From NCBI RefSeq assembly GCF_022712115.1, contig NZ_JALAHB010000169.1:1-35124 (forward strand): a stretch of 35,124 nucleotides of DNA, given 5' to 3'. Under the pieces are notes generated by a model that ran no database searches, was not told the DNA's origin, and was given only the letters and a program-made list of their open reading frames with translations. This document shows, one piece after another, positions 2,044 to 27,561 of this stretch. Positions within the stretch are counted from its first letter, which is position 1, and every line of letters starts with the position of its first letter. Position numbers and translations under genes: made by a program. This DNA is from Brevibacterium sp. Lineage in GTDB: Bacteria > Actinomycetota > Actinomycetes > Actinomycetales > Brevibacteriaceae.

Positions 2044-3381
2044 ATGACAGCTCCTACCACCGGGACGGCGCCGCCGCGCACCGCAGCGAACGCCGCCTCC
2101 CGCACCCCGCACCTCGGGAATCCGCAGAAGCCCCTCGAGGCCCCGCACACGGCCGCCGCACAGCGCACGGTCGCCATCATCCCGGCCCGAGGCGGGTCCA
2201 AGGGGATCCCGCTGAAGAACCTCCAGAAGGTGGCGGGCAAGAGCCTGCTGACGCGTGCCATCGAGTCCGCACAGCACGCCCAGCGGATCGACCACGTGGT
2301 CGTTTCCACGGACCATGACGGCATCGCCGAGGAGGCCCGTGCCGCCGGCGCACAGGTCATCCGGCGCCCCTCCGACATCTCCGGCGACCACGCCACCAGC
2401 GAGTCGGCGCTCCTGCACGCCCTCGCGGAGCTCGGCACCCCCTACGCCATCACGGTCTTCATCCAGTGCACCTCCCCCTTCACCGACGCGGCCTCGCTGG
2501 ACAACGCGGTGGACCGCGTCGCCTCGCACTCCGCGGACGTCGTCTTCTCCGCGGTCGCGGACCACTCCTTCCTCTGGAAGCTGGGACCGGACGCGGCGGC
2601 GGAGGCCGTGGGGCACGTCGCCTCCCACCGGCCGCGGCGCCAGGACCGCGAGCCCCACTTCAACGAGACCGGGGCCTTCTACGTCATGCGGACCGAGGGC
2701 TTCCTCGAGCACCGGCACCGGTTCTTCGGCCGCATCATGATCGAGGAGGTGCCGGAGGAGCACGCCCGCGAGATCGATTCGATGAGCGACCTGACCCTGG
2801 TGCGCTCCATCGCCGCGCAGCAGGACGCGCACCCCCTCCTGGACGTGCAGGCGCTCGTCACGGACTTCGACGGCGTGCACACGGACGACTCCGTCCTCGT
2901 CGCGGACGACGGCCGCGAGGTCGTCCGGACCCACCGCGGCGACGGCCTGGGCGTCGGCCGCCTCGTCTCCGCCGGGTTCCCGTTCCTCATCCTCTCCAAG
3001 GAGCGCAACCCCGTCGTCAGCAGGCGCGCGGAGAAGCTGCGGACGGAGGTGCTCCAGGGCATCGACGACAAGGCCGCCGCACTGGAGGCCTGGATGGCCT
3101 CCAAGGAGGTCGACCCGCAGAAGGTCGCCTACGTGGGCAACGACCTCAACGATCTGCCCGCCTTCGGGGCGGTGGGCTGGCCCATCGCCGTGGCCGACGC
3201 CCATCCCAAGGTCCTCGCGGCCGCCCGGGTCGTCCTCTCGAGACCCGGGGGCCACGGCGCCGTCCGCGAGGTCTGCGACCTCATCCCCGATTCCGCGCTC
3301 CCGGCGCGCACCCCCGACCTCACCTCGTCCCCCATCGCCTTCGCGGCCCCGCACACCCACAAGACCAAGGAGTTCGCATGA
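2044..3381 (+). CDS. neuA: CMP-nonulosonic acid (sialate/Kdn) synthetase fused to a KDO8P-phosphatase-like HAD domain
   Basis: 445 residues. After about 40 low-complexity residues comes a cytidylyltransferase domain with the CTP-binding motif IIPARGGSKG (45-54). It runs to about residue 260, with TSPF and NETGAFYVM as further family-like segments. The second half is a C0-type HAD phosphatase domain beginning VTDFDGVHTDDSVLV, with D274 and D276 as the expected nucleophile and acid/base pair. It also has a LSKERN segment (motif II position) and YVGNDLNDLPAF (motif III). The fused enzyme should activate a nine-carbon sugar acid to the CMP form, and its HAD part may remove the 9-phosphate first, as separate enzymes do in Kdn synthesis. 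Animal CMAS has a similar fusion in which the HAD part is not a working phosphatase. First gene of the operon; its stop overlaps the next start (ATGA). A likely -10 box lies 8 bases upstream. Confidence 0.9.
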   Translation: MTAPTTGTAPPRTAANAASRTPHLGNPQKPLEAPHTAAAQRTVAIIPARGGSKGIPLKNLQKVAGKSLLTRAIESAQHAQRIDHVVVSTDHDGIAEEARAAGAQVIRRPSDISGDHATSESALLHALAELGTPYAITVFIQCTSPFTDAASLDNAVDRVASHSADVVFSAVADHSFLWKLGPDAAAEAVGHVASHRPRRQDREPHFNETGAFYVMRTEGFLEHRHRFFGRIMIEEVPEEHAREIDSMSDLTLVRSIAAQQDAHPLLDVQALVTDFDGVHTDDSVLVADDGREVVRTHRGDGLGVGRLVSAGFPFLILSKERNPVVSRRAEKLRTEVLQGIDDKAAALEAWMASKEVDPQKVAYVGNDLNDLPAFGAVGWPIAVADAHPKVLAAARVVLSRPGGHGAVREVCDLIPDSALPARTPDLTSSPIAFAAPHTHKTKEFA

Positions 3382-4316
3382 TCCAGACGCTCGCACCCCG
3401 CACCGCACCCTCCGCCGCGACACGCACCTCCGCAGCGCCCTCCTCCGCGCCCGCACCCGTGCGGATCGGGGAGCACTCGGTGGGCGCCGGGCAGCCGGTC
3501 TACATGATCGGCGAGATCGGCATCAACCACAACGGCGAGGTCGAGCTCGCCAAGCGGCTCATGGACGTGGCGGCGGAGGCCGGCGCGCAGGCGGTGAAGT
3601 TCCAGAAGCGGAACCCGGACGTGGCCGTGCCGGAGGCGCAGAAGTCCAAGATGCGCGAAACGCCCTGGGGCACCATGACCTACCTCGAGTACAAGTACCG
3701 CGTGGAGTTCGAGCGCGAGCAGTACCGGGAGATCGACGCGCACGCCAAGCAGCTGGGCCTGCAGTGGTTCGCCTCGCCGTGGGACACGGATTCCGTGGAC
3801 TTCCTCGAGAACGAGTTCGATGCGCTCACCTACAAGGTGGCCTCGGCCTCCCTCACGGACTTCGAGCTCCTCCGCGCGATCGCCGCCACCGGAAAGCCGG
3901 TGCTGTGCTCCTCCGGGATGTCCGACTGGGACATCCTGGACGCCGCGGTGGAGGTCTTCGACCGCGAGAACCTGGTGCTCATGCACGCCGCCTCCACCTA
4001 CCCGCTGCCGCCGGAGGAGGCCAACCTCCGGGCGATCCCGGCGATGGAGAGGCGCTACGGGGTCCCGGTGGGCTACTCCGGGCACGAGATCGGCACGGAG
4101 ATCTCGCTGGCCGCCGTGGCACTGGGCGCGGTGACGGTGGAGCGCCACATCACGCTCGACACCACCATGTGGGGCTCGGACCAGTCCGCGTCCATGGAGC
4201 CGGACGAGTTCATCGCGCTCTGCCGCGGCGTGCGCGTGCTGGAGCGCGCCCTGGGCGATGGTGAGAAGCGCATCATGCCCGGCGAGGAGTCCAAGATCGC
4301 CTCGCTGCGCAAGTAA
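3378..4316 (+). CDS. neuB: N-acetylneuraminate/Kdn synthase family protein lacking the SAF domain
   Basis: 312 residues, a TIM-barrel synthase condensing phosphoenolpyruvate with a hexose substrate to give a nonulosonic acid. Visible motifs are GEIGINHNGE (N50, H51, N52), KFQKRNPD, FASPWD, SGHEIG (H236) and ERHITLD (H257). H236 and H257 have the 21-residue spacing of the two metal-binding histidines of Neisseria NeuB. The first 30 residues are Ala/Pro/Thr-rich and probably disordered. The protein stops at SKIASLRK, just where the C-terminal SAF (antifreeze-like) domain normally follows, so it is about 40 residues shorter than usual even with the N-terminal extension. The next frame shows no SAF remnant, because a GT2 gene starts 20 bases later. 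Start ATG 3378 overlaps the stop of the preceding gene, suggesting translational coupling. Whether the substrate is ManNAc, mannose-6-phosphate or another sugar cannot be read here. Confidence 0.9.
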   Translation: MIQTLAPRTAPSAATRTSAAPSSAPAPVRIGEHSVGAGQPVYMIGEIGINHNGEVELAKRLMDVAAEAGAQAVKFQKRNPDVAVPEAQKSKMRETPWGTMTYLEYKYRVEFEREQYREIDAHAKQLGLQWFASPWDTDSVDFLENEFDALTYKVASASLTDFELLRAIAATGKPVLCSSGMSDWDILDAAVEVFDRENLVLMHAASTYPLPPEEANLRAIPAMERRYGVPVGYSGHEIGTEISLAAVALGAVTVERHITLDTTMWGSDQSASMEPDEFIALCRGVRVLERALGDGEKRIMPGEESKIASLRK

Positions 4317-4336
4317 CGGCGGGAGAACACGCACCA

Positions 4337-5431
4337 GTGACCACGTCCCCCAGGCTCTCCGTCATCGTCCCCGCCAAGGACGCCGAATCCTACATCGCGG
4401 AATCGCTCACCTCCCTCACCCTTCAGGGGCTCCCTCCCGAGGACATGGAGGTGGTGGTGATCGACGACGGTTCGGAGGACCACACCGCGGAGATCGCCGG
4501 GCGGTTCGCGGACCGGTTCGGGGCATTCCGCCTGCTCCGCAATCCGCAGCCCACCGGCGTCTCCGCGGCGCGCAACGCGGGGATGCGCGCCGCGACCGGC
4601 ACCGGCATCACCTTCCTCGACAGTGATGACTGGTACGCCGACGGGCACCTCGCGGTGATGCTCGAGGCCTTCGAGCACCTCGAGGTGGACTCGGTGCGGA
4701 CAGACATCATCCTGGCGGCGGGCAAGCACCGCACGCTCAAGTCCGCCCCGGTGTACCTGCGGAACACCCGTCTGCGGACCGCCGACCACACGGTGCGCGG
4801 ATTCGACCAGACGATGGTCGACTACCCCAATCCGCCCACGGGCCTCTACCACCGCAGGCTGCTGGAGCGCGGGCTGCTGTACTTCGACGAATCGCTGCGC
4901 AGCGCGGAGGACCGCGAGTGGAACTGGCGGATCATGCTCCGGTCCGAGACCTTCGCGGTGGTCACCACACCGGGTGCCTACTACCGGCGCGGAGTGGGCG
5001 GTTCGCTCACGGCGGTCTACAACGAGACGCAGCTGGACTTCATCCGCAGCTGCGAGAAGACCCTCGCGCTCACCCGGGAGCTCTCCGGCGGGGCGGAGGG
5101 CGATCCGCGGACCCTCAAGGCCGCGCACAACCTCTTCGCGCTGGCGGACATCCACCTGCAGCGCCGCGCGGAGATGACCAGGGGCCTGCGCACGCAGCTG
5201 GTCTCCGAGCTCACGCGCGTGGCGGAGGGACTCAGCGAGGCGGAGCTGGGGACACTCGTGGACACCTTCAGCCGCAAGCGGCGCGACCATCTCCGGCCGG
5301 TGCTCCGCGCACTCAGCAGGCGGAAGGCCGCGCGTTCCTCTGCCGGCGCCCGCGCCCCGCAGAATTTCCGCGCCCCGCAGAACCTCCGCACCCCGCACAA
5401 CCCCCGCACCGCAGGAAGGACCATGCCGTGA
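4337..5431 (+). CDS. GT2 family glycosyltransferase
   Basis: 364 residues. The GT-A fold is clear at the N-terminus: LSVIVPAKDAESYIAESL, then VVVIDDGSEDHT, then NAGMRAATG, then the metal/nucleotide-sugar motif DSDDWY (D95, D97, D98). A WNWRIMLR segment with an upstream ED pair fits the acceptor/catalytic region. The last 35 residues are Ala/Arg/Pro-rich and include three six-residue repeats of the RAPQNF type. The start is GTG 4337 with a GGCGGGAG ribosome site about 10 bases upstream. The stop overlaps the next GTG start (GTGA). In context it should add a hexose or similar residue to the nonulosonate-containing polymer. Donor and linkage are unknown. Confidence 0.85.
   Translation: MTTSPRLSVIVPAKDAESYIAESLTSLTLQGLPPEDMEVVVIDDGSEDHTAEIAGRFADRFGAFRLLRNPQPTGVSAARNAGMRAATGTGITFLDSDDWYADGHLAVMLEAFEHLEVDSVRTDIILAAGKHRTLKSAPVYLRNTRLRTADHTVRGFDQTMVDYPNPPTGLYHRRLLERGLLYFDESLRSAEDREWNWRIMLRSETFAVVTTPGAYYRRGVGGSLTAVYNETQLDFIRSCEKTLALTRELSGGAEGDPRTLKAAHNLFALADIHLQRRAEMTRGLRTQLVSELTRVAEGLSEAELGTLVDTFSRKRRDHLRPVLRALSRRKAARSSAGARAPQNFRAPQNLRTPHNPRTAGRTMP
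5351..5404 (+). repeat. 18-nt tandem repeat, three copies, in the end of the GT2 gene
   Basis: Units at 5351-5368, 5369-5386 and 5387-5404. The first two share the first 14 bases exactly (CGCGCCCCGCAGAA); the third is diverged. In frame they encode RAPQNF, RAPQNL and RTPHNP. A slippage-prone, probably disordered tail. Confidence 0.6.
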
Positions 5432-7017
5432 AGCAGGTGTTCGCCGTGTCCTCCTGGCTGCAGCTCGCCAGTCTCGCCGCCGCCATGGACTCCGGGCTGC
5501 TCGAGGAGGCGCAGGAGCGCGTCCTCCTCGTGTCCGACAACCGCGTGGTCAACGAGGTGGGTCCGTCGTTCGCCCAGAGGCCGGAGGCCGCGCCCCTGCT
5601 CACGCGGTTCGACAGGGTGATCAGCCTCAACGAGTGGATCTGGCCGATGCATCCGGCCCAGTGGGGGCCCAAGGACATCGAGCGCACGATGTGGTCCAAG
5701 CTGTTCACCCGCGCCTGGGAGCTGGAGAGCGCGGACGGACGCGTGCAGCTCTTCCTCGAGTCCGTGCAGTCGAACCCCGGCCGGGCGCTCGCGGCCGTGT
5801 TCCTCGAGGCGGAGCTCTTCGTGCACTCGGACGGCCTCATGGGCTACGGCCCCACCCGCAACCGGCTCTCTCCGCTGCTGTGGAACCGTCTGCGGGGCTT
5901 CGTCTATGTGGACCTCGTGCCGGGTCTGCGACCGCTCATGCTCTCCGAGTTCGAACGGGTGGAGCACCTGGTGGTGCCGCCCGAGGCCGTGCGCGCCGCC
6001 ATCGGCGAGGTGGCGGACAGCGCTGCGGTGCAGCTCCCGGAGGAGCGGGAGGGGACGGCGCTCATCATCGGGCAGTACCTCTCCGACATCGACCTCCTCA
6101 CCCACGAGCAGGAGACCGAGGTCTATGCCGCCATGGTCAGATCCGCCCTGGATGCCGGCTGCACCTCCGTCGTCTTCAAGCCCCACCCGGCCGCTTCGTC
6201 CTCGGTCAGCAGTGTGCTGGCCGCACGGGCGGCAGAGGCCGGCGCGGCCTTCGAACTGGCGCCCTCGTCCGTCCCGCTCGAACTCTGCCTGGACCGGATG
6301 CGGCCGGCCGCGGTGTACAGCTGCTTCTCCACCGGCATGGTGACGGCCTGGCGGCTCTACGGGGCGAAGGCCCGGTCGCTGGGCACGGATCTGGCTCTGG
6401 AGGCGTTCGCACCCTATGAGAACAGCAACCGCATCCCCGTGACCATCTGCCGGTACCTCTTCGACGACGCTCACGGCGCGGAGGCCGCTCACACTTCGGA
6501 GAGCACCCACAGCGCCGAGGCAGCTCACGGCCCCGAGGCAGCCCACGGCGGAGCGCAGGGTGGGGCCTACGGCGATCGGGCGTTCTCGCTGCAGGAGCTC
6601 ACGGACGCGGTGGGCTACTGCATGCAGTCGCGCATCTACCCGCATCTGCGGGACTCGGCACAGGCCTTCCTGACCGCTCACTACTCTGCCACGCCGGAGT
6701 ACTTCAAGCGCCGCCGGCTCACCAAGCTCGGGCTTCCCGGCGGCCTCCCTCCCCGTACTCGCACAGTGCTGGACCGGGCACGGAGCACCGTGGCTCAGAC
6801 CCTGCCGGAACCCGTCGCAGCCCGTGTGCGACCGCTGGCGGCGAAGGTCAGGAGCGTGCTGAACGCGCGCGTCCCGCGTGCCGCCGCACCCGCACCCGCC
6901 TCTCCCACAGTCGCGCCGTCGGTTCCCGCACCCGCGCCCGCGCCCACAGCCGCGCCTTCGTCACGCACAGCCGCCTCGCTCATCCCCACCGCCACAGGCA
7001 CCGGGAGCCGCCGATGA
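5428..7017 (+). CDS. Polysialyltransferase-family (GT-B) glycosyltransferase
   Basis: 529 residues. The layout resembles the bacterial polysialyltransferase and related sialyltransferase families. An early SDG (HSDGLMGYGP, residues 133-142) sits at the place of the D/E-D/E-G motif. A KPHPAAS segment (H253, P254) gives the HP motif that binds CMP-sugar, and YSCFSTGMV gives the small Ser/Thr motif. It is expected to use the CMP-activated sugar from the first gene, on the cytoplasmic face. A His/Ala-rich insert lies at about residues 348-380, and the last 75 residues are Pro/Ala-rich, with no membrane helix. The GTG start at 5428 overlaps the previous stop and has GGAAGGA 8 bases upstream. The stop overlaps the next ATG. 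It could also be a relative acting on another CMP-sugar. Family fairly sure, linkage unknown. Confidence 0.7.
   Translation: MKQVFAVSSWLQLASLAAAMDSGLLEEAQERVLLVSDNRVVNEVGPSFAQRPEAAPLLTRFDRVISLNEWIWPMHPAQWGPKDIERTMWSKLFTRAWELESADGRVQLFLESVQSNPGRALAAVFLEAELFVHSDGLMGYGPTRNRLSPLLWNRLRGFVYVDLVPGLRPLMLSEFERVEHLVVPPEAVRAAIGEVADSAAVQLPEEREGTALIIGQYLSDIDLLTHEQETEVYAAMVRSALDAGCTSVVFKPHPAASSSVSSVLAARAAEAGAAFELAPSSVPLELCLDRMRPAAVYSCFSTGMVTAWRLYGAKARSLGTDLALEAFAPYENSNRIPVTICRYLFDDAHGAEAAHTSESTHSAEAAHGPEAAHGGAQGGAYGDRAFSLQELTDAVGYCMQSRIYPHLRDSAQAFLTAHYSATPEYFKRRRLTKLGLPGGLPPRTRTVLDRARSTVAQTLPEPVAARVRPLAAKVRSVLNARVPRAAAPAPASPTVAPSVPAPAPAPTAAPSSRTAASLIPTATGTGSRR
6465..6570 (+). repeat. Imperfect AEAAHG-type repeat inside the polysialyltransferase-like gene
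   Basis: About five short imperfect repeats encode alternating Ala, Glu and His, for example GAEAAH, SAEAAH and GPEAAH. They end in a Gly-rich run. The insert lies between FDDAHG and the conserved-looking FSLQELTDAV segment, so it seems to be a loop expansion and not a domain. Confidence 0.55.
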
Positions 7018-8015
7018 CCGCACGCGCCCTCGTCGAATCGCCCTTCCAGTTCGTCTCCGCCCTGGAGGCGCTGCGCGGCACGGAGGAGGCAGTGGTGCAC
7101 GCGCGGCCGGACGCACGCGGGATGGAGCAGTTCCTGCGCCAGCTGCCGGAGGGCTGGCTGCCTCCCGGCGTGACCGTCTCCACGCGCCCGCCGTCGTACG
7201 CACCGCAGGCACGGACCACACGTCTGCTGGTAGGCGACCTGTGCTCAGGACGGATCCAGCGGACGGTCTCGCAGAGCTACCTGCTGTCACTCCTGCCGGA
7301 GCTCACGATCCTCGACGACGGCCTCGCGACCCTCAGCGTGGTGGAGCAGCTGGTCTCCGGCACCGGTCCGCTGAGCCGTCCCCGCCAGCGGCTGAGCCCG
7401 GTGCGCAGCAGGCTCTCCGCGTTCTTCGCCGCTCGGCTGCGCGGCCTCGCACGGAAGGGACGGGTCGACTGGTTCACGGCGCTGCGCCCCGGTCCTGAGC
7501 TGCGGGCGAGCGCCGCCGCGCGCAGTGTCCGCATCCGCGAGCACCGCTTCGAGCACGCCCGCAGCGTGGGAAGCGGTGAGGCACCGGAGTCCGAGGCCGT
7601 GGTGATCGGCTCCGCGATGGCCGCGGACGGGCTCATCCGGCCGGCGGCGTACCTCGACTGGGTGCGCGGTGCCGCGGGCCGCGGCACCGGCCTCTCCGCC
7701 CGTTCCACGACCTACTACCCCCACCGCCGCGAGTCGCCGGACTTCCTCGCGCGCGTCGCTCAGCTCGAGGGCGTGCGCGTGGCCGAGCCCGGGCTGCCCC
7801 TCGAACTCCGGCTCTCCTCGCTCCCACCCGGCGTCCACGTGCTGAGCCTGCCCTCGACCGCGGTGGTGAGCCTGGCGACGATGAACCCGGAGGCGGTCTT
7901 CGCGGTGACTCCCGTGGAACCGGCCTGGTGGACGGATGCGGCACCCGCGGAGTTCCGGGCGAGCACCGCGCGGAACGGGAAGGCGCTGCGGGAGTGGACG
8001 AGGCAGACATGCTGA
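7014..8015 (+). CDS. GT52/polysialyltransferase-like glycosyltransferase
   Basis: 333 residues, beginning ALVESPFQFVSALEAL, which resembles the N-terminal strand-helix of GT52 and polysialyltransferase-type enzymes. The three motifs of this superfamily are present in order: DDG at 101-103 (TILDDGLATL), a PH pair at 236-237 (TYYPHRRES), and Ser/Thr at 281-282 (LPSTAVVSL). It should be a second CMP-nonulosonate transferase in the same operon, probably making a different linkage or acting as initiator or elongator with the preceding protein. ATG 7014 overlaps the upstream stop by four bases. It lacks a signal peptide or membrane segments. Family assignment is by motif recognition only. Confidence 0.65.
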   Translation: MTARALVESPFQFVSALEALRGTEEAVVHARPDARGMEQFLRQLPEGWLPPGVTVSTRPPSYAPQARTTRLLVGDLCSGRIQRTVSQSYLLSLLPELTILDDGLATLSVVEQLVSGTGPLSRPRQRLSPVRSRLSAFFAARLRGLARKGRVDWFTALRPGPELRASAAARSVRIREHRFEHARSVGSGEAPESEAVVIGSAMAADGLIRPAAYLDWVRGAAGRGTGLSARSTTYYPHRRESPDFLARVAQLEGVRVAEPGLPLELRLSSLPPGVHVLSLPSTAVVSLATMNPEAVFAVTPVEPAWWTDAAPAEFRASTARNGKALREWTRQTC

Positions 8016-9244
8016 TGCGGGGCTCGGCGGCGCCCAAGATCCTCGCCGTTGCCGATTCGGAGTCGTACCTCAAATGGGCAGCGCATCTGCTGGCGGGCCT
8101 GCAGGGCGCGGGGACGGCAGATTTCCGCACCGAGCTCCTGCTCCTCGACACCCCGCTGCTGCCGGTGCCGGAACAGCGGAGCGCGGCACTGACCGGCACA
8201 CGGTGGGAGGGGCGCTCCCCCGGTGTCGTGACGCGCAGAGCTCTGCGCGGGGAGCTCGAACGCCTGCGGCCGGACATCGTCCTGGCGGCGGCCACCGGTC
8301 CCGTCGTGCAGCAGATCCACTCCACCGCCGCCCGCGTGTCACCGCGCCCGGCGCTGCTCTCCGGCCTGCCCGGGGTGGGTCTGCCGGCGACCACGAAGGG
8401 GGCCCGGTACAGGCGCCTCGGCGACGCCTTCGTCACGCATTCGCATGCGGAGGCCGCCGCGTACCGCAGGGTGTACGGCGCGCTCCGGTACCCGGCGGAC
8501 ATCCTCGTGACCCGCCTGCCGATGCTGGCTTCAGCGGCACCGCCGGAACCTGTGCGGGGCGGTGGGCGGGTGCACCGGATCGTGTTCGCCCCGCAGGCCA
8601 AGGTCCCGCCGCTGCGCAGCCAGCGTCTGCAGATCCTGCGCGCCCTGGACGACTGGGCGCGGGCCGAGGCCGGACGGACGGTGGCGATCAAGCTCCGTTC
8701 GCGGGAGGGTGAGCAGGAGACCCACCACGAGCATGTGCCGTACCGCGAGCTGCTGGGGCGGATGCACACCTCCGGCGAGGCGAGCGCGCGGATGCGGCTG
8801 GAGTACGGGCCGATGGCCGAGTTCCTCACTCCCGGCACGGCGCTGGTGACGGTCTCCTCCACCGCCGCACTGGAGTCGCTGGACCGGGGCCTGCCGACGC
8901 TCGTCGTCTCCGACTTCGGGGTGAACGAGGAGATGCTGAACGCGGCGTTCTCCGGCTCCGGGCTCGAACGCACCCTGGAGCAGCTGCGCGCCGGTGACTT
9001 CCCGTTCCCCACGCGGGACTGGCTGCGGGAGAACTACTTCCACCCGCCGGAGGACTCCTTCGAACGCGCCCTGGTGCTGCTGGCCGCACGCTCCCGCCAG
9101 GCGCAGCTCACGGACCTGGGGCGGCAGGCGCTGGCACAGGATCTGCGAGGTGTGCGGGCGGAGCTCCGCACCCTCGCACCGGCGCCGGTCGTGAGCGCCT
9201 ACCGCAGCGGTGTCACCGCGCTGCGCAGGATCCGCAGCCGCTGA
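8009..9244 (+). CDS. DUF6716-like putative glycosyltransferase
   Basis: 411 residues. The start KILAVADSESYLKWAAHLL and the general layout match what I recall of actinobacterial proteins named DUF6716 putative glycosyltransferase, which occur beside sialic-acid genes. A late VTVSSTAALESLDRGLPTLV segment resembles the Ser/Thr-rich sugar-nucleotide region of GT-B enzymes. Start choice: ATG 8009 has GGACGAGG 6-7 bases upstream and overlaps the previous stop by seven bases. ATG 8015 (TGATG overlap) is an equally coupled alternative two codons later. An open frame reaching back to 7928 is rejected because it would overlap the upstream gene by 88 bases. Last gene of the operon. The exact reaction is unknown; likely another step on the same polymer. 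Confidence 0.7.
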   Translation: MLMRGSAAPKILAVADSESYLKWAAHLLAGLQGAGTADFRTELLLLDTPLLPVPEQRSAALTGTRWEGRSPGVVTRRALRGELERLRPDIVLAAATGPVVQQIHSTAARVSPRPALLSGLPGVGLPATTKGARYRRLGDAFVTHSHAEAAAYRRVYGALRYPADILVTRLPMLASAAPPEPVRGGGRVHRIVFAPQAKVPPLRSQRLQILRALDDWARAEAGRTVAIKLRSREGEQETHHEHVPYRELLGRMHTSGEASARMRLEYGPMAEFLTPGTALVTVSSTAALESLDRGLPTLVVSDFGVNEEMLNAAFSGSGLERTLEQLRAGDFPFPTRDWLRENYFHPPEDSFERALVLLAARSRQAQLTDLGRQALAQDLRGVRAELRTLAPAPVVSAYRSGVTALRRIRSR

Positions 9245-10998: not shown

Positions 10999-11264
10999 CG
11001 GGACAAACTAGCATCCGCTTCTGCACTTCCCCCGAACTCGCCTCATCATCCGCTCATACTTCTGTCAGGAAACGCAGAGCATTCATTCCGTGAATCGCAG
11101 AATCACCGCGGTCAGGGGATTCCCACTCGGCCCCATTCCCCCTTCAAGGCGCTTTCTTGAAACCGAGATGTACAGTGCGACAGCAGGAGAAAGAGAATCC
11201 GATGGCGAATCATCGAATTCCGACAATTACGCTTCACGGCATTTCCCCGACGCAGGAGACCTCG
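10999..11264. other. AT-richer intergenic region between divergent polymer genes
   Basis: 266 bases between the divergent acyltransferase and TagF-GT4 genes. The line at 11041-11100 is about 50% GC, far below the surroundings. It must hold the promoters for both directions. A TTCAAG...CTTGAA inverted repeat lies at 11143-11161, and TACAGT at 11171-11176 could be a -10 box. No gene was recognised. Confidence 0.4.
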
Positions 11265-13796
11265 ATGGCACAGCTTTCCTTCAGGAGTCGCGCGCACAGG
11301 CGCCTCGTCGCGGAGACGGTGGCCCGGTCCCGCCGCCTCCCCGTCAGGAAGAACACCGTCCTCTACGAGGCGAACTCCGGACGGGGAGCGGTCTGCAACC
11401 CTGAAGCGATATTCCGTGCACTCATGGCAGCACCGGACATGTCCCACCTCAAGCACCTCTGGGTGCTCGAGGAGGACTGCCTGAACGATCCGATCGTCGC
11501 GGAGTTCGAGAAGGCGAAGAATGTGCGCTTCATCGAGTACAAGTCCCTCGAGTACTACTACGCACTCGGAACGGCCGGCTATCTCGTCAACAATTCGACT
11601 TTCCCGCCGGAACTCTCCAAGAGACCGGAGCAGACCTACATCAACACCTGGCACGGCACGCCGCTCAAGCGGATGGGCTACGACGTCGAAGGCGGGGGCC
11701 CTGACACCCGGAACATCATCAAGAACTTCCTGGCAGCAGATTGGATTCTGTCGCCGAACCCCTTCACCACAGAGACCATGCTGCGCAAGGGCTATCGCCT
11801 CGACGGGATCTTCCGCGGGAAGATCGCCGAGGTCGGCTATCCGCGCGTCGACCACCAGTTCCAGGGCCCCCTGGGCCGCAAGCAGACACTGGAGCGTCTT
11901 CGCGCAAGCGGGACCGTGGTGCCCGCCGGTGCGAAGATCGCCCTGTACGCCCCCACCTGGAAGGGCGCGTCCTTCTACGATCCGCTCGACGAGATGGCCT
12001 CCACGGCGGAGTTCGTCACGGAGCTCCAGGAGCGCCTCGGTCCCGGCTGGCGGGTTCTCCTCAAGGTCCATCAGCGCGTCCTCGCGCAGGCGGATGCGCA
12101 TCCTGAGCTCCGCGACCGGCTCGTGCCGAACCACATCCCCGCCAATACGGCGCTCGCGGTCTCGGACGCACTGATCACGGACTACTCGAGCATCTTCTAC
12201 GACTACCAGGCCCTCGAACGGCCGATCCTGTTCTACATTCCCGACTACGACTCCTACTCCGGCTACCGCGGCCTCTACCAGGAGCCCGCGGACTGGCCCG
12301 GCCCCATCGTCACCACTGTCGAGGCCGCGGCGGAGGCTCTCCTCGCAGCTCCGGACGAGGCCGTGACGGACCGCCTCCGCGCCGCGCGGCAGACCTACAA
12401 CCCCCACGACGACGGACGAGCCTCGCAGCGTGTGGTGGACCTCGTGTTCCGCGGCAAGGACCCCGGCGGGACCGTGATCTCCGACTTCTCGGACGGGCGG
12501 ACGAGCCTGCTGCTCTATCCCGGCGGCCTGCTGCCCAACGGCATCACGAGTTCGTGCGTCAACATGCTCAACTCCCTGGACTTCGACCGCTTCGACGTCT
12601 CCGTGGCGTACGGCCACAGCACCAAGCCGGATGCGCTCAGCTTCCTCAGCCGGATCGATCCCCGCATCCGCCTGCTCCCCCGCATAGGCCGCTTCACCAC
12701 GGGCAAGAAGCCGCTGGAGCAGGTGCTCGGAGCCGAATTCCCCTGGGGAGACGACGCCCGCGCGCCCCGCGCCCGGAAGGACTTCCACGACGAGTGGCGG
12801 CGCTGCTTCGGAGACGCCCGCTTCGACCACGTCATCGACTTCTCCGGGTACGGACCTCTGTGGGCGGGGATCTTCGCCGCCGCGCCCTCGGGCGTGAAGT
12901 CCATCTGGCAGCACAACGACATGGTCTCCGAGGTGTCCAAGGAGATCAACGACTCCACGCCCCACGAACGCCGCCTCAAGCAGGTCTTCGACCTGTACAA
13001 CGACTTCGACACAGTGGTCGCCGTGTCGCCCAGCCTCTGCGAGCTCAACCGTGCCGGGCTCCAGCACTACGCGCCCCACACCGCCTTCACCTACGCGCGG
13101 AACCTCATCGACGGCGAGGCGGCTCTCGCCCGAGCCCGCCCGCGGTTCGAACTGCAGCGGCCCCAGGCAGAGGCTCCGCAGGGCGCGGATCTGCGGACGC
13201 AGGTCCGCCTGCTCACCGATGCGTACGGCGGCGAGGCCGTCGCCCAGGCGGTGGAGTTCGAGACCGTGCTCTCGACGTTCCTGCCGCCGTCCGAGGACAC
13301 CACCTTCCTCACGATCGGCCGGATGAGCCCGGAGAAGAACCAGGCGAGGATGATCCGCGCCTTCGCACAGGTGCACCGGGAGAACCCGGCCACGCGTCTG
13401 GTGATGGTGGGCGACGGCGTCCTCCGCGAGAGTCTGCGATCGCTGGTGCAGAGCCTGGGGCTCGGGGATGCGGTGGCACTCACGGGCCAGGTGTCCAATC
13501 CCTTCCCGCTGTACGAGGCAGCCGACTGCTTCGTCCTCTCCAGCGACTACGAGGGGCAGCCGATGGTCATCCTCGAGGCGAGGGTTCTCGATCTGCCCAT
13601 CGTGTCCACGCGGTTCGCCTCCGTGACGGATGCGCTCAGCGACGATCAGGGGCTCATCGTCGATCGCTCCGACGACGCGCTCGCCGAGGGCATGCGCGCC
13701 TATCTCGCGGGCGCCGTACCGCAGCAGGCGTTCGACTGGAAGGCGTACAACGCCCAGGCGCTCGGCGAGTTCCTCTCCGCGGTGAGGGCCGCGTGA
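11265..13796 (+). CDS. TagF/TagB-type CDP-glycerol glycerophosphotransferase fused to a GT4 glycosyltransferase
   Basis: 843 residues with two catalytic halves. The first, residues 20-395, is a CDP-polyol phosphotransferase domain: NTWHGTPLKRMGY with the catalytic-type H130, LYAPTWKG, KVHQRV and TDYSSIFYDY with D306. The second, residues 405-843, is a GT-B/GT4 glycosyltransferase with LLYPGGLLPNGITSS, a donor motif GRMSPEKNQ (R686) and the EX7E pair E763/E771 in DYEGQPMVILEA. It may build polyol-phosphate chains and glycosylate them in one polypeptide. Start choice: ATG 11265 has AGGAG six bases upstream. The in-frame ATG 11202 and TTG 11157 are possible but add an unconserved-looking lower-GC leader. 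The stop overlaps the next GTG. No membrane helix. Confidence 0.85.
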   Translation: MAQLSFRSRAHRRLVAETVARSRRLPVRKNTVLYEANSGRGAVCNPEAIFRALMAAPDMSHLKHLWVLEEDCLNDPIVAEFEKAKNVRFIEYKSLEYYYALGTAGYLVNNSTFPPELSKRPEQTYINTWHGTPLKRMGYDVEGGGPDTRNIIKNFLAADWILSPNPFTTETMLRKGYRLDGIFRGKIAEVGYPRVDHQFQGPLGRKQTLERLRASGTVVPAGAKIALYAPTWKGASFYDPLDEMASTAEFVTELQERLGPGWRVLLKVHQRVLAQADAHPELRDRLVPNHIPANTALAVSDALITDYSSIFYDYQALERPILFYIPDYDSYSGYRGLYQEPADWPGPIVTTVEAAAEALLAAPDEAVTDRLRAARQTYNPHDDGRASQRVVDLVFRGKDPGGTVISDFSDGRTSLLLYPGGLLPNGITSSCVNMLNSLDFDRFDVSVAYGHSTKPDALSFLSRIDPRIRLLPRIGRFTTGKKPLEQVLGAEFPWGDDARAPRARKDFHDEWRRCFGDARFDHVIDFSGYGPLWAGIFAAAPSGVKSIWQHNDMVSEVSKEINDSTPHERRLKQVFDLYNDFDTVVAVSPSLCELNRAGLQHYAPHTAFTYARNLIDGEAALARARPRFELQRPQAEAPQGADLRTQVRLLTDAYGGEAVAQAVEFETVLSTFLPPSEDTTFLTIGRMSPEKNQARMIRAFAQVHRENPATRLVMVGDGVLRESLRSLVQSLGLGDAVALTGQVSNPFPLYEAADCFVLSSDYEGQPMVILEARVLDLPIVSTRFASVTDALSDDQGLIVDRSDDALAEGMRAYLAGAVPQQAFDWKAYNAQALGEFLSAVRAA

Positions 13797-16294
13797 GTCC
13801 CCGCCGCGCGCGCCGTGCACTCACTGCGCTGGGACAACGCCTCACCGCACGGCTGCGGCCGGACGGACAGGAGAGGACGGCCTCACGTGCAGAGAGGGCC
13901 GGGAGCCCAGAGAGTGCGACGGGGACTACGGCCTCCGCTGCGGCCCCGGTGGCCTTCGGACCCGTGCACGGTGTGAGAGCTGATCTGCGCGCCGTGCACT
14001 GGGAGGGCCCCGAACTCCATGTGGAGGGGTGGGTGACGGTGGACGGCCGTGCGCGGAAAGCACCCCCGGTTCTCCGCGTGTTCATGGTCCCCGCCGGCGA
14101 CGAGCAGTCGTTCGACGATGCCGCGACCCTCCTGGCGGCCGGAACGGAGCTGAGGACGGAGCCCGCTCCCTGGCTCGACGTCAACGGCTTCGTGGACAAG
14201 AATCACGATCTCTCCTCCGCGGCCTTCCGCGCCGTGTGCCGGGTACAGGATCTCTGCGATTCCCCGCACGGCCGGGTGCAGCTGGTCGTGCAGTACGACC
14301 GGAAGGCCGCGCAGGTGACCTCCTTCACGCACAGGTACGGCTGGGGTTCGGCAGGCCATCTGCAGGCGCTCGTCGTCTCCGGCCGGCGCCTGGCACCGGA
14401 GTGGAGCGGGGAGCGCGGCCTGTGCCTCGTCCGGTCCTCACCCGCGGCCTTCGCGGACGGGCCGCCGCAGGCGCAGGGAGAGCAGATCGTGGTGCCCCTC
14501 CGGCTCGTTCCGGACTTCGTGCCGGTGAGCGCCGGGTGGAGCCTGGAGAAGGCCTCGTGCCCGGTGCCCCTCGACCTGTCCCGCAGTGCTGACGGCCGCA
14601 GCGAGCTGCGGATCGGCGCAGCCGGGCACACCCCTGCCTCAGGGTCCTGGGCCATCGCGCTGACCGGCGGCGACGGTGCGCGGCGGCACGTGCACTGGAA
14701 CAGCACGGACTGGGAGTACGTGCCTGTCTCCGGCGGCGCTCTCGAGAGAGGGACGGGCGGTCTGGTCCGGCTCACCCGTGCACCCCGTCGCTGCCCGGCG
14801 GCGGAGGTGACGCTCTCCGACGGGCGTCTCGCGATCACCCTGGCTGCGACGGCACCGGACTCCGTCTCGCATCTGCTGCTCCGCGGCGCACGCACGGAGC
14901 TCCGCGGTGAGCGCGCGGAAGCGTCGCGCTTCAGCATCCCCCTGGCACACCGCGCGTGGCAGGCGGAGGTGGACGCACCGCCCTCCGGCGGGTATCGCGC
15001 CTGGGCCGTGCTCGAGGACGGGGACGAGGTCCCCGTGGTCCTCACCGGACCGCTGAGCGCCCGGACTCCGCTCCCCCTGCAGGATCCCTCCGCCGCCATC
15101 CGCGCAGAGCATGCGCCGGACGGACAGCTCTACTTCGACTTCGCCGCGCCGCTCGGCCCCGACGAGAGGGGGCGCAGCAGCCGCAGATCGCTGGCCTCGG
15201 CCTGGACCGGCCCCGGCAGGCCCTCCCCCGCCGGCGGTGTGTTCCTGGAGTCCTGGTACGGCAAGACCGTCTCGGACAACCCTCCGGCCCTCCTCGAGGC
15301 GCTGCAGGCGGAGGGCGTGCCCGGCCCCTACTACGTCACGGTGGCGGACCGCTCGGTGGAGTACCCGGCCCAGGCGGAGCCGGTCATCGCGGGCGGCCGC
15401 GCGTACTGGCAGGCACTGGGCGCCAGCAGACTGGTCGTCTTCAACACCTGGCTGCCGGGCGGGTTCCGGAGGCACAGGGACCAGTACATCGTCCAGACCT
15501 GGCACGGCACGCCCCTCAAGGCCCTCGGTGCGGACGTGCCCCACCGGCGCGGCAAACCGGAAGCGGTGGAGCGGCTGCGGAAGGGCTCCCGCGAATGGGA
15601 TCTCCTCCTCTCCCAGAACCCCTACTCCACGGAGATCCTCCGCCGCGCCTACGCCTTCGAGGGCGAGGTCGCGGAGACCGGGTATCCGCGCAACGACCGT
15701 CTGAGCGGCAGCGGACGGAATGCGCTGCGTGCGCGTGCCCGTGCGGACCTGGGCCTCTCCCCCGAGGCCGCGGTGGTCCTCTACGCCCCCACGTTCCGCC
15801 CGGAGGCCAAGGGCAGCCTCGGCCCCCTGGACACGGCGGGGCTCATGGCGCGCCTTCCCAAGGACGCCGTGCTCCTCGCCCGGGGCCACAGCGTCACCCT
15901 GCGGCGGGGGAAGGACCTCAGGAGCGACCGGGTGGTGGATGTGACCTCGTATCCGGAGCCCGCGGACCTCATGGCCGCGGCCGACTGCCTGGTCACCGAC
16001 TACTCCTCCATCATGTTCGACTTCGCCGTCACGGGCAGGCCGATCCTGTACTTCACCCCCGACTACGAGGACTACCTGGAGACGGGCAGAGGCGGGTACT
16101 TCGATCTCGCCGCTGAGGCTCCAGGGCCGCTGCTGCGCACGGAGAGCGCGCTCGCGAAGGCGCTCACGGACACCCTGTACGGAGGCTGGGCCCCGTCCGA
16201 GGCCTACAGACGCTGGCAGCGGGAGTTCGTTCCCCACGACGACGGGGAGGCCGCCCGCAGACTGGCCGCCCGGATCTCCGCGGCGCTGCGCTGA
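13793..16294 (+). CDS. CDP-glycerol glycerophosphotransferase (TagF-like) with a long N-terminal extension
   Basis: 833 residues. The C-terminal third is a TagF/TagB catalytic domain: VQTWHGTPLKALGADV with H571, LLLSQNPYSTEIL, GYPRND, VLYAPTFRPE and VTDYSSIMFDF with D736, then YFTPDYEDYLETGRGGYFD. These fit a peripheral-membrane enzyme adding glycerol phosphate, or another polyol phosphate, from the CDP form to a lipid-linked wall polymer. The first 450 residues contain no catalytic motif. They look like two or three beta-rich segments (for example LHVEGWVTVDGRARKAPPVL), which other actinobacterial TagF proteins also carry. The first 60 residues are basic and Ala-rich. GTG 13793 overlaps the upstream stop (GTGA), so it is probably coupled to the TagF-GT4 gene. 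The ORF extends upstream to 12554 in frame, but that part lies inside the previous gene and is rejected. Confidence 0.85.
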   Translation: MSPRRARRALTALGQRLTARLRPDGQERTASRAERAGSPESATGTTASAAAPVAFGPVHGVRADLRAVHWEGPELHVEGWVTVDGRARKAPPVLRVFMVPAGDEQSFDDAATLLAAGTELRTEPAPWLDVNGFVDKNHDLSSAAFRAVCRVQDLCDSPHGRVQLVVQYDRKAAQVTSFTHRYGWGSAGHLQALVVSGRRLAPEWSGERGLCLVRSSPAAFADGPPQAQGEQIVVPLRLVPDFVPVSAGWSLEKASCPVPLDLSRSADGRSELRIGAAGHTPASGSWAIALTGGDGARRHVHWNSTDWEYVPVSGGALERGTGGLVRLTRAPRRCPAAEVTLSDGRLAITLAATAPDSVSHLLLRGARTELRGERAEASRFSIPLAHRAWQAEVDAPPSGGYRAWAVLEDGDEVPVVLTGPLSARTPLPLQDPSAAIRAEHAPDGQLYFDFAAPLGPDERGRSSRRSLASAWTGPGRPSPAGGVFLESWYGKTVSDNPPALLEALQAEGVPGPYYVTVADRSVEYPAQAEPVIAGGRAYWQALGASRLVVFNTWLPGGFRRHRDQYIVQTWHGTPLKALGADVPHRRGKPEAVERLRKGSREWDLLLSQNPYSTEILRRAYAFEGEVAETGYPRNDRLSGSGRNALRARARADLGLSPEAAVVLYAPTFRPEAKGSLGPLDTAGLMARLPKDAVLLARGHSVTLRRGKDLRSDRVVDVTSYPEPADLMAAADCLVTDYSSIMFDFAVTGRPILYFTPDYEDYLETGRGGYFDLAAEAPGPLLRTESALAKALTDTLYGGWAPSEAYRRWQREFVPHDDGEAARRLAARISAALR

Positions 16295-20115: not shown

Positions 20116-21390
20116 ATGCAGGACTGGCTACGCAGGCAAGCGCGATCGCTTGTGCGTTCACGCCCCTGGACAACCGTGAGCCAGTGGATACGCGGGGGTG
20201 CACGCGGACCGGCGGCGGGACACGAGATCCACGGCGTACCGGTTCCGGGGCAGGTGGTCGCCTACTTCGGCGACAACGCGGACAAGATCTACCAGCTGAC
20301 CCAGTGGCTTCCGATCCTGGAGCAGCTCAATCAGCATCACCCCACCCTGCTGGTGTTCCGAAAGCTCAACGCGCTCCGCGCAGTCAAAGGAATGACGAAG
20401 CTCCCCATGGCGTTCGTTCGACGGTTCGACGACCTCGCCACTCTGTACTACGAGAACGACTACAGACTGGTCCTGTATGTCAACAACGGCGTGACGAACT
20501 TCCAGTCGCTTTCATATGCACCAGCGGTCCATGTGCACATCAACCACGGCGAGAGCGACAAGCTCAGCATGGTCTCGAATCAGGCCAAGGCATACGACAA
20601 GACCTTCATTGCAGGACCAGCCGCGCTCGAACGCCACAGGGCAGCACTCCTGGACTTCGACGAGAGCAAACTTGTCCCTGTGGGCCGCCCTCAGCTTGAC
20701 ATAGATCGAGAACCAGCTCTTCCCCCTTCCCGCGGTCGCACCCTCATGTATGCCCCTACCTGGGAGGGTGAGAACGACACCAACAACTACACGTCCATCG
20801 ACAAGTACGGCGTCGCCATCATCAAGGCACTTCTGGAGATCCCGGATTCGAGGATCGTCTACAAGCCTCATCCACGCGTGGAGGAGACCGACGACGAAGC
20901 GATGGCTGCAGCCGATGCGCAGATCAGGGAGCTCATCCAGAAGTCGAATGCCGACAGAGCGCATGATCGCCACCTGATCATGATGTCGGGCGACATCCTC
21001 GCCATGTTCAGCCAGGTGGATCTGCTGGTGACCGACATCTCCAGCGTCGGCCTGGACTTTCTCTACCTGCGCCCGGAGAAGCCGCTGATCCTCACGGATC
21101 GCCGGAACGATCGAAGGGCGCTCAACCTCGAATCACCGATAAGCAGAAGCACGCCCATCATCGACGGCTCCTCCGTGTCGCGTACTGCTGCACTCGTCGA
21201 GGAGGCACTGGCCTCCGACAGGCATGCCGAGGAGAGAGCGCACCAAAGAGCCTTCTACTTCGGTGAACGAGAGATCGGTTCCTCGACCGCGGACTTCCTC
21301 AGCGCAGTGGACAGGCTGATCGAAGAGCGCGCCGAGAATCTCTCCGCCTTCGTCCGCCACCAGGGAACCAACATGGAGGCGGCGGACTGA
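20116..21390 (+). CDS. CDP-glycerol glycerophosphotransferase family protein, HGES-type
   Basis: 424 residues. It has the GT-B layout of TagB/TagF but with HINHGESDK (H144) where the canonical enzymes have TWHGT. YAPTWEGEND, VYKPHPRVEE and VTDISSVGLDFLYLRP supply the remaining donor-site motifs, and GRPQLD takes the place of GYPR. It is clearly related to the protein at 27558-28829, which shares YVN, NFQ, HGES and SMVSN segments. The role is probably transfer or priming of a polyol phosphate. ATG 20116 has GGAGGAA upstream with ideal spacing. A possible -10 (TAGGAT, 20074-20079) precedes it. This gene opens the lower-GC block (about 60% in a counted line against about 75% at 15 kb), which suggests separate acquisition. 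Confidence 0.8.
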   Translation: MQDWLRRQARSLVRSRPWTTVSQWIRGGARGPAAGHEIHGVPVPGQVVAYFGDNADKIYQLTQWLPILEQLNQHHPTLLVFRKLNALRAVKGMTKLPMAFVRRFDDLATLYYENDYRLVLYVNNGVTNFQSLSYAPAVHVHINHGESDKLSMVSNQAKAYDKTFIAGPAALERHRAALLDFDESKLVPVGRPQLDIDREPALPPSRGRTLMYAPTWEGENDTNNYTSIDKYGVAIIKALLEIPDSRIVYKPHPRVEETDDEAMAAADAQIRELIQKSNADRAHDRHLIMMSGDILAMFSQVDLLVTDISSVGLDFLYLRPEKPLILTDRRNDRRALNLESPISRSTPIIDGSSVSRTAALVEEALASDRHAEERAHQRAFYFGEREIGSSTADFLSAVDRLIEERAENLSAFVRHQGTNMEAAD

Positions 21391-23501: not shown

Positions 23502-24959
23502 ATGGCAGACATCCTCATCCGAGCCACGCCCTCTCCGCTCGAAGCGGTCGGCCCCAGCGACATCTGGAAGCTCAACGCATATCACAACAACAGCGGAAAC
23601 GTCGCATTCCCCTTCGGGCTCTTCCGGCATCTCACCACCGGCGACAGAAATGTCGTCTCCGACTGGTACGGAGCACGACTGCCCGAACCGGAAGAAGTCA
23701 ACGAACGCTTCGACATGTACGTCCTGCCGATGGCCAACGACTTCGGCGGACACTTTGCCGGCGAGATGCTGCGCATGGCGAAGTTCATCGAGAAGCTGAA
23801 GATCCCGGTGGTGGTCGTCGGCATCGGGGGCGCATTCGGCATCGATGACAGCTTCGACAGTCCGAAGCCCTTCGACGACACCGCTCGGCGCTTCATCAAT
23901 GCCGTCCTCGAGCGTTCCTCGAAGATCGGCCTTCGCGGGGAGATCACCGGACGCTACCTGACCTCCCTGGGATACAAGGAAGACAGGGATTTCCAGGTCA
24001 TCGGCGATCCGACGCTCTACAACCTCGGGTCCACCCTGAAGATCAAGCCCTTCAGCTACCACCCTGACATGCGCATTGCCTACAACATGACGCCCAAGGC
24101 CCCGCAGGCCGCGCTCCGTTTCCTCAACTCGATCCCGGACAACTTCGAGAACACACTGTATGTCCCTCAGGACCTCGGTGATTTCTCCAAGCTCTATGCG
24201 GGCATGATGGATGTGAACGCGAATCCCCATCGTGACACCGTCGACAACTACCCCAATTCCCTGACAGACTCCCCTTTCCGCACGGGAAGAATGAGCTTCT
24301 TCACGAATGCCCCTTCCTGGATCGAGGAGATGAAGGGGTACGACCTCTCCATCGGTACGCGCATTCACGGGAACATCCTGCCCACCCACGCCGGAACTCC
24401 GTCCCTGACTCTCATGTACGGATCACGCTTGAAAGAGCTCGCAGACTACCACCATCTTCCGCGCAAGATGGCTGACAGCATCGACCCGGACATCTCGCTG
24501 GAAGAGCTCGTCAGCGACGTCGACTTCCACGAGCCGGAGAAGTTCCACGCAGAGAACTTCGCCCGCTTCGTCTCGTTCCTCGATGAGAACGAGATGACGC
24601 ATTCCTATCGCCAGGCGGGCACCAGCGCAGAGCTGCCCTTCGATGCCGCTCTGAAGCAGGTTGAGGTGCAGGCTCCCATTGGCCCGGTGACGGCACTGAA
24701 TGATCTGGAAGAGATACGCTCGCGCCTGGCACTGGGCCACGACATTTCGCGCGAGAAGGTCATTGCGCAGAAAGCTCGCTTGAAGCGCATGATGGCGGAG
24801 ATCCAGCATCTCAAGGCCGAGAACAAGTCCCTCAAGGACGAGAAGAAGACCCTCAAGGCCGAACGCCGCGAGGCCCTCCGCCTGGCTGCAGCGAGAACCC
24901 CCCGAGGCCTGGCCGGTCGCGCGAAGAGGAAGATCACCAAGGCTCTGCGTATGAGCTAG
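23502..24959 (+). CDS. Polysaccharide pyruvyltransferase family protein with C-terminal coiled coil
   Basis: 485 residues. The core shows the CsaB/GumL-type fold: NNSGNVAFPFGLFRHLT at the start, VVVVGIGGAFG, a GLRGEITGRYLTSLG segment with VIGDPTLYNLG after it, and the hallmark SIGTRIHGNILPTHAGTPSL. Such enzymes move pyruvate from phosphoenolpyruvate to a sugar or polyol as a ketal. The last 75 residues are Lys/Glu-rich with heptad-like KAENKSLKDEKKTLKAE, a probable coiled coil, and a basic tail that may touch the membrane. ATG 23502 has AAGGA ten bases upstream; an in-frame start 22 codons earlier is rejected. GC is about 60%. With TagD and the glycerophosphotransferases it suggests a pyruvylated teichoic acid, as reported for Brevibacterium (inference). 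A strong terminator follows. Confidence 0.85.
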   Translation: MADILIRATPSPLEAVGPSDIWKLNAYHNNSGNVAFPFGLFRHLTTGDRNVVSDWYGARLPEPEEVNERFDMYVLPMANDFGGHFAGEMLRMAKFIEKLKIPVVVVGIGGAFGIDDSFDSPKPFDDTARRFINAVLERSSKIGLRGEITGRYLTSLGYKEDRDFQVIGDPTLYNLGSTLKIKPFSYHPDMRIAYNMTPKAPQAALRFLNSIPDNFENTLYVPQDLGDFSKLYAGMMDVNANPHRDTVDNYPNSLTDSPFRTGRMSFFTNAPSWIEEMKGYDLSIGTRIHGNILPTHAGTPSLTLMYGSRLKELADYHHLPRKMADSIDPDISLEELVSDVDFHEPEKFHAENFARFVSFLDENEMTHSYRQAGTSAELPFDAALKQVEVQAPIGPVTALNDLEEIRSRLALGHDISREKVIAQKARLKRMMAEIQHLKAENKSLKDEKKTLKAERREALRLAAARTPRGLAGRAKRKITKALRMS

Positions 24960-27532: not shown

Positions 27533-27561
27533 ATGTTATCCCCGCGTTCACATCGCTTCAA
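27533..27561 (-). promoter_or_regulatory. Sigma-70-type promoter of tagD
   Basis: On the minus strand TTGAAG (27561-27556) and TAACAT (27538-27533) are separated by exactly 17 bases. This would start transcription near 27526 and give a leader of about 30 bases before tagD. The -35 box overlaps the stop codon of the upstream transferase gene. Confidence 0.55.

Follow-up and report, generated by a model that had tools for sequence, protein, structure and literature searches.

The 35,124-nucleotide contig NZ_JALAHB010000169.1 of Brevibacterium sp. (assembly GCF_022712115.1), analysed as a whole and hereafter called the window, carries an operon of six adjacent genes, g1-g6, on the + strand at positions 2044-9244. 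We consider it likely that this operon makes the cytidine monophosphate (CMP)-activated form of the nonulosonic acid Kdn for a phosphate-free wall polymer, a teichulosonic acid. A Kdn pathway had been proposed in an earlier, sequence-only reading of this DNA; that part of its interpretation stands with the genome content, the comparison of loci and the chemistry of relatives, while its view of the genes as novel and its count of transferases do not. The six genes, with mannose-6-phosphate as Man-6-P, phosphoenolpyruvate as PEP and Kdn-9-phosphate as Kdn-9-P, are:

2044-3381, + strand: g1, 445 aa, a CMP-transferase domain and a KdsC-type HAD domain in a single frame; predicted CMP-Kdn synthetase and predicted Kdn-9-P phosphatase
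3378-4316, + strand: g2, 312 aa, NeuB (PF03102, 252.5 bits, E 5e-75) without a SAF domain; predicted Kdn-9-P synthase (Man-6-P + PEP)
4337-5431, + strand: g3, family 2 glycosyltransferase (GT2; PF00535, 111.5 bits)
5428-7017, + strand: g4, polysialyltransferase-like (PF07388, 94.8 bits), with an Ala/Pro-rich tail; predicted CMP-Kdn-using transferase
7014-8015, + strand: g5, orphan family; predicted CMP-Kdn transferase of the bacterial sialyltransferase fold
8009 (or 8015)-9244, + strand: g6, DUF6716 "putative glycosyltransferase", GT-B; predicted hexosyltransferase and partner of g5

The g1/g2 and g4/g5 overlaps are ATGA and the g3/g4 overlap is GTGA; g5 and g6 share 7 bases (or 1, with the alternative g6 start), and 20 nt separate g2 from g3. 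The gene set and borders proposed earlier are borne out by the positions of the open reading frames and by domain matches, as are the NeuB-type synthase and the cytidylyltransferase fused to a KDO8P-phosphatase-like HAD domain (PF03102, PF02348 and KdsC-type matches), but there are four transferases (g3, g4, g5 and g6) instead of the three counted. Among named genomes, where the best match of g2 is from Brevibacterium album (90%), 80 of 149 loci were kept, 39 of them from Brevibacterium and the others from Sediminivirga, Isoptericola, Promicromonospora, Thermobifida, Nonomuraea and further Actinobacteria. g1 and g2 occur together in 79 of the 80, the exception (L034) beginning near a contig end, and the complete g1-g6 order is kept in 32. 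The arrangement is thus not due to chance.

The synthase and the fused CMP-transferase/phosphatase

g2 is the single NeuB of the window's genome (276 contigs totalling 3.68 Mb, 99.48% complete). The canonical SAF (antifreeze-like) domain is missing from it, the protein stopping after the barrel, and g2-type synthases end 7-14 aa past the barrel in 80/80 named loci. The sole SAF match of the genome sits on another contig, in a protein that is CpaB-like as judged from its neighbourhood. Absence of SAF alone is not new, since PDB entry 6ncs is already a SAF-less chain of 290 residues. PF03102 matched in 223 of 394 genomes of the class (completeness at least 95%), many of them weakly, and 147 of the matches listed were strong. 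The class-wide sample comprised 100 neighbourhoods, about two thirds of these 147, including 20 loci picked from a large genus, g37, which we take to be Streptomyces; it gave 100 readable NeuB genes (L191 gave no full-length NeuB and another locus gave two). Six loci have a NeuB identical to that of another locus; they come from five genomes present in both the class-wide and the named set and from the pair L052/L053. Such duplicates were removed from the g2 signature and g5/g6 fusion counts and are still in the g4 motif and PHO-box counts.

The length behind the barrel splits the 100 class-wide synthases into 55 short (4-32 aa) and 45 long ones (62 aa or more), and the two kinds have different neighbours. 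Near the 55 SAF-less genes a HAD phosphatase lies in 49 cases, fused to the CMP-transferase in 47, and relatives of g4 and g6 in 43 each, with NeuC or an aminotransferase in 0/55 of these neighbourhoods each. Near the 45 SAF-bearing genes NeuC was found in 4 and an aminotransferase in 21, and a HAD, g4 or g6 relative in 0/45 (Fisher test between the two kinds, uncorrected for kinship: 3e-22 for HAD, 0.04 for NeuC). The CMP-HAD fusion stands beside the synthase in 77/80 named loci (not in L034, L039 and L069), and NeuC is nearby in none. L131, L132 (genome G112), L125, L193 and L204 are SAF-less synthases without a HAD nearby, whose phosphatase may lie elsewhere in the genome. The absence of NeuC was also tried as a marker of the clade and rejected: contrary to expectation, a genome-wide PF02350 (NeuC/WecB) match is as common with SAF-less (26/52 genomes) as with SAF-bearing (20/45) synthases, and so no rarer with the short kind. 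PF02350 and a strong NanE match are both missing from 26 of the 48 genomes that, in the sample, have only short synthases, therefore the short-synthase pathway is independent of both; the same double absence holds in 25 of the 41 genomes with only long synthases, many of which have an aminotransferase instead.

In a tree of 74 rows (33 SAF-less, being a random 30 of the class-wide sequences plus the window, L014 and L057, and 41 SAF-bearing), the SAF-less rows form one side of a branch with support 100/99; several branches elsewhere in the tree are long. K77, R78, G235 and E237 are each found in 129/130 distinct SAF-less rows and W265 in 130/130, against 4, 4, 4, 0 and 0 of the 41 SAF-bearing rows (the residue comparison omits four of the 45, whose extensions exceed 300 aa). 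Position 158, the column that aligns with the active-site Glu134 of meningococcal NeuB, is S in 120/130 short synthases and E or D in 41/41 long ones. Judged from these sequences, the SAF-less NeuB clade is actinobacterial and has its own putative active-site signature. The rows nearest to it, the SAF-bearing L173, L174, L175 and L212, share K77, R78 and G235, not E237 or W265; part of the signature may thus have arisen before SAF was lost. HAD, NeuC and aminotransferase were all not found near these four. K77-R78, beside the active-site KFQ strand, are candidate binders of the 6-phosphate of Man-6-P. In meningococcal NeuB an arginine of the SAF domain contacts the N-acetyl group of N-acetylmannosamine (ManNAc), hence loss of SAF would suit a substrate without N-acetyl.

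The CMP part of g1 matches PF02348 over residues 43-174 (86 bits) and the PseF model over 43-252, and the HAD part covers 267-414. The scores with PseF (120.6 bits, cut-off 205.7) and KdsC PRK09484 (112.3 bits) are all below the curated cut-offs, and the curated KDN-9-phosphatase model NF058599, by its name apparently built on the Bacteroides enzyme, gives 80.6 bits against a cut-off of 180. The HAD motifs DxD (D274, D276) and GND (G365-N366-D367) are invariant in 125/125 rows, and so are E320 and K331 (125/125 rows, 119 after removal of duplicates), where the KdsC chains 3ij5, 3n07 and 7t35 have R and T/A/T. A putative counterpart, with the same spacing, is the specificity pair Glu56/Lys67 reported for the Bacteroides Kdn-9-P phosphatase BT1713. 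The nearest solved HAD is 3mmz (172 bits), presumably a Streptomyces protein and without an assigned function; 3e81, which we take to be the Bacteroides Kdn-9-phosphatase, gives 70 bits, and two variants of that chain, 4hgq and 4hgr, score 2.7 and 5.5 bits lower, in agreement with a role of the Glu/Lys pair if they are mutants of it. For the CMP part the nearest PDB entry is 9t4z, "PpNeuA" (121.8 bits), ahead of 1qwj (99) and 1eyr (87); from its name it is probably the enzyme of Prymnesium parvum. The P. parvum synthetase is reported to produce CMP-Kdn, not the CMP derivative of N-acetylneuraminic acid (Neu5Ac), and the Kdn-9-P synthetase of the same organism to act on Man-6-P (100%) and not on ManNAc-6-phosphate and five other sugars (0 each) (PMC6200933).

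The Kdn route and its competitors

Searches of the whole genome gave no match to PF02350, NanE (PF04131) or AGE (PF07221), and no full-length PseC/LegC-type DegT aminotransferase. Six partial PF01041 matches (20-34 bits) exceed the Pfam cut-off of 19.8 but cover at most 174 of 360 positions, and we read them, from sequence, as other pyridoxal phosphate enzymes. A type I mannose-6-phosphate isomerase (ManA, E 5e-28) is encoded. Neu5Ac would thus have no ManNAc source and pseudaminic (Pse) or legionaminic acid (Leg) no aminotransferase, and with ManA present the formation of Kdn from Man-6-P is, of the known nonulosonate routes, the one for which alone every part was found in the genome. The HAD phosphatase fits Kdn because the Man-6-P route needs one and the ManNAc route does not. 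The sequence-only reading had taken a synthase, a HAD phosphatase and a CMP-transferase without NeuC for a Kdn set: the absence of NeuC holds genome-wide in the nearly complete assembly, and the missing NanE, AGE and full-length aminotransferase, together with the ManA, support the assignment. We propose that ManA, encoded elsewhere, would form Man-6-P from fructose-6-phosphate, that g2 would convert Man-6-P and PEP to Kdn-9-P, that the HAD half of g1 would remove the phosphate to give Kdn, and that the CMP half would turn Kdn into CMP-Kdn.

The Kdn pathway of Bacteroides thetaiotaomicron, reportedly described by Wang and colleagues in 2008, likewise has a synthase, a HAD phosphatase and a CMP-transferase and starts from Man-6-P. 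Unlike it, the Brevibacterium operon unites phosphatase and CMP-transferase in g1, has a HAD distant from 3e81 and includes polymer transferases. P. parvum also has a Kdn-9-P synthetase that is strict for Man-6-P and a CMP-Kdn synthetase, the latter probably being g1's closest relative of known structure; it differs in being a eukaryote, in having no phosphatase identified and in lacking a polymer locus (PMC6200933).

Three other origins of the sugar have to be weighed against Kdn. Neu5Ac could be made if g6 were a hidden NeuC, that is a UDP-GlcNAc 2-epimerase supplying ManNAc to g2, and a list of folds indeed places g6 with NeuC; the GT-B fold is, however, common to many transferases, and a ManNAc route would need no HAD. 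Against a PF02350 profile built from 18 proteins (2/20 stretches had no usable frame) g6 aligns weakly and with low confidence (31.6%, E 5e-4), and the places of the catalytic Asp, Glu and PEE are taken by P98 (30/30 rows), R113 (27/30) and A127/T128, while the equivalent acids are reported as required in the human enzyme (PMC4793188). With these acids apparently missing, a NeuC role for g6 is very unlikely. An animal-type route, in which an unrecognised epimerase would deliver ManNAc-6-phosphate to g2 and the HAD, would share with the Kdn route the 9-phosphate intermediate that the HAD implies; g2 has the KFQK and GYSGHE motifs in common with human NANS, and the human enzyme is reported to accept both substrates (PMC6200933). 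NanE, AGE and PF02350 are nevertheless all without a match in the genome, 26 of the 48 genomes with only SAF-less synthases lack both PF02350 and a strong NanE match, and Kdn is the sugar reported from the chemistry of relatives, so that we hold this route to be improbable. The third possibility is that a different hexose is the starting point for Pse, Leg or a new nonulosonic acid. In its favour, the CMP part has its best score with the PseF model, still well below its cut-off, and synthesis of Pse or Leg is probable for other sampled Actinobacteria, where an aminotransferase lies near 21/45 SAF-bearing loci. The neighbourhoods of all 55 SAF-less genes are without an aminotransferase, however, and none is full-length in the window's genome; Pse and Leg synthases, moreover, take unphosphorylated sugars, which would leave the HAD idle. 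For want of the aminotransferase we give such an acid very little credence, and Kdn remains the most likely sugar.

Transferases and the wall polymer

g5 has no Pfam or NCBIfam family match. It is predicted to fold like the bacterial sialyltransferases, its D101-D102-G103 is invariant, and it lacks the full sialyltransferase motif pair, having P236-H237 in place of H-P. g5 and g6 form one open reading frame in 6/96 distinct loci, L007 among them, and this pairing, sometimes as a fusion, together with the fold predicted for g5 suggests that the two are a Kdn/hexose polymerase. In such an enzyme g5 (with CMP-Kdn) and g6 (with a UDP-sugar) would most likely act in turn on a growing hexose-Kdn chain, as do the two activities of the capsule polymerase of Neisseria meningitidis serogroup W (PMC6048754). 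The comparison with that polymerase is one of two-activity design, not of sequence, and differs in the predicted donor of g5, which is Kdn and not Neu5Ac. A literature search turned up no publication on DUF6716. The comparison makes polymerase candidates of two transferase families to which no function had been known; if it is right, DUF6716 and the family of g5 would each acquire one.

The motifs D/E-D/E-G and HP are described for bacterial sialyltransferases of families GT38, GT52 and GT80 (PMC2169525). In g4, D135, G136, H253 and P254 occur in 101, 102, 96 and 97 of 102 rows; HP is kept, and conservation of D/E-D/E-G is limited to D135-G136, which S precedes in the window. A search of PDB sequences with g4 gave no match. 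g4 would act with g3 as a second transferase pair, for a primer, a second linkage or a branch. The window's g4 has inserts at 6484-6564 (His/Ala/Glu-rich) and 6868-7014 (the Pro/Ala-rich C-terminal tail), at which most of the 102 relatives in the alignment have gaps (92-100/102 rows where listed).

Kdn wall polymers are known chemically from several Actinobacteria. Locus L057 of Promicromonospora citrea ATCC 15908, which we take to be the type strain, has the fused CMP-HAD, a SAF-less synthase, g5 and g6. The polymer reported for P. citrea 665T is a teichulosonic acid, ->6)-Glc-(1->6)-Glc3S-(1->4)-7,9Pyr-Kdn-(2-> (PMC6801904). These relatives of the core genes, in a species with a Kdn-teichulosonic acid in its type strain, support the link to such polymers that had been drawn from the sequence alone. 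An APS kinase (L057:15767-16528, E 3.6e-60) and an ABC transporter pair (13475-15662) stand by the Kdn locus of L057. Together with a pyruvyl-transferase match of 23.8 bits, just under the cut-off of 25.3, these genes fit the sulfate and the pyruvate on the P. citrea polymer.

The main wall glycopolymer of Streptomyces coelicolor is reported to be a Gal-Kdn teichulosonic acid (PMC7831098, PMC11481543). SCO4873-SCO4882 is named the teichulosonic acid cluster, after Ostash et al. 2014 (PMC13011467), with neuAB placed within SCO4873-81 (PMC2267785) and SCO4880 tabulated as a sialic acid synthase between the hypothetical SCO4879 and SCO4882 (PMC8269224); S. lividans SLI_5146-5156 is likewise named a teichulosonic acid region (PMC8003754). 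The statement of the sequence-only reading that Kdn teichulosonic acids had no characterised genes was therefore wrong, both regions being already in print. In genus g37 the order is g5-NeuB-HAD/CMP-g6 with g3-g4 divergent (L113 and L116; g5 was not found in L127). The S. coelicolor region resembles the Brevibacterium operon in its synthase, neuA-type gene, flanking hypothetical genes and a GT2, and the putative match of the core to SCO4879-4882 is drawn from gene order and annotation; in Brevibacterium, by contrast, the six genes are all co-directional and in a different order.

The type of system is thus already known from Streptomyces, and what is new are the roles proposed for the fused g1, for the synthase without SAF and for g5 and g6: in the mainly open-licence literature no paper was found that assigns each step of a Kdn wall polymer to an enzyme. 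We suggest, with somewhat more reserve than conviction, that these parts belong to a distinct and widespread actinobacterial Kdn system, in which a SAF-free synthase with a K77-R78 phosphate clamp, a dual-function g1 and a two-part g5/DUF6716 polymerase would make a phosphate-free chain under phosphate shortage. A SAF-less NeuB beside a CMP-HAD fusion can serve as a genome marker for likely makers of Kdn polymers.

Genomic setting and regulation

Downstream of the operon the window holds further genes for wall polymers:

11157-16294, 20116-21390 and 27558-28730: four PF04464 (TagF/TarF-like) proteins, one of them fused to GT4 (11157-13796)
23508-24959: polysaccharide pyruvyl transferase (PF04230, 60.6 bits)

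A CDP-alcohol transferase and GalE also lie downstream, and on account of all these genes the operon is placed in a wall-polymer island. These surroundings bear on one more alternative, that CMP-Kdn is destined for a capsule, a glycolipid or a protein glycan and not for a wall polymer. A ligase and an exporter are absent from the six genes, and g4 belongs to a family of capsule enzymes, as that alternative would have it. The neighbourhood, with its four proteins of teichoic-acid type, the pyruvyl transferase and the CDP-alcohol transferase, argues for the wall instead, and so does the Streptomyces counterpart, which is tied to a wall polymer (PMC13011467); a destination outside the wall is therefore unlikely in our judgement.

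Phosphate shortage would probably raise expression of the operon through PhoP, and the teichulosonic genes of S. coelicolor are reported to be PhoP-dependent (PMC13011467, PMC2267785). If this is true, a phosphate-sparing wall switch reaches from Streptomyces to Brevibacterium. Two PHO-box-like direct repeats precede g1 (by the S. coelicolor consensus):

1949-1970, - strand: PHO-box-like direct repeat, 20/22 positions, 73 nt before g1
2002-2023, + strand: second, weaker PHO-box-like repeat, 17/22

When up to 3 mismatches are allowed, the repeat at 1949-1970 is the sole match in the 35 kb window, and at least one such match occurs in 31/100 shuffled windows; when the upstream 200 nt were shuffled 200 times by mononucleotide, 4% of the shuffles scored as well as the repeat at 2002-2023. 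The 230 nt ahead of the CMP gene contain GTTCAC[CT] in 27/36 Brevibacterium, 20/41 other named and 12/32 class-wide loci, compared with 0, 0 and 1 in coding controls of equal length; in these counts related species do not contribute independently, and the sets share a few loci. The control with genus g37 is weak, the best score upstream of g6 (on either strand) being no higher than that of the coding control in 12/20 loci, therefore the case for PhoP control in Brevibacterium draws mainly on the GTTCAC[CT] counts. Sigma-70 promoters were searched for and none found, and terminator-like sites number 1 against an expected 1.1.

The PF04464 proteins are read as a second, phosphate-containing wall polymer system adjoining the Kdn operon, and phosphate-rich and phosphate-free polymers may be alternatives within the wall-polymer island. 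Pyruvylated teichoic acids are reported from the walls of Brevibacterium iodinum (PMC6801904).

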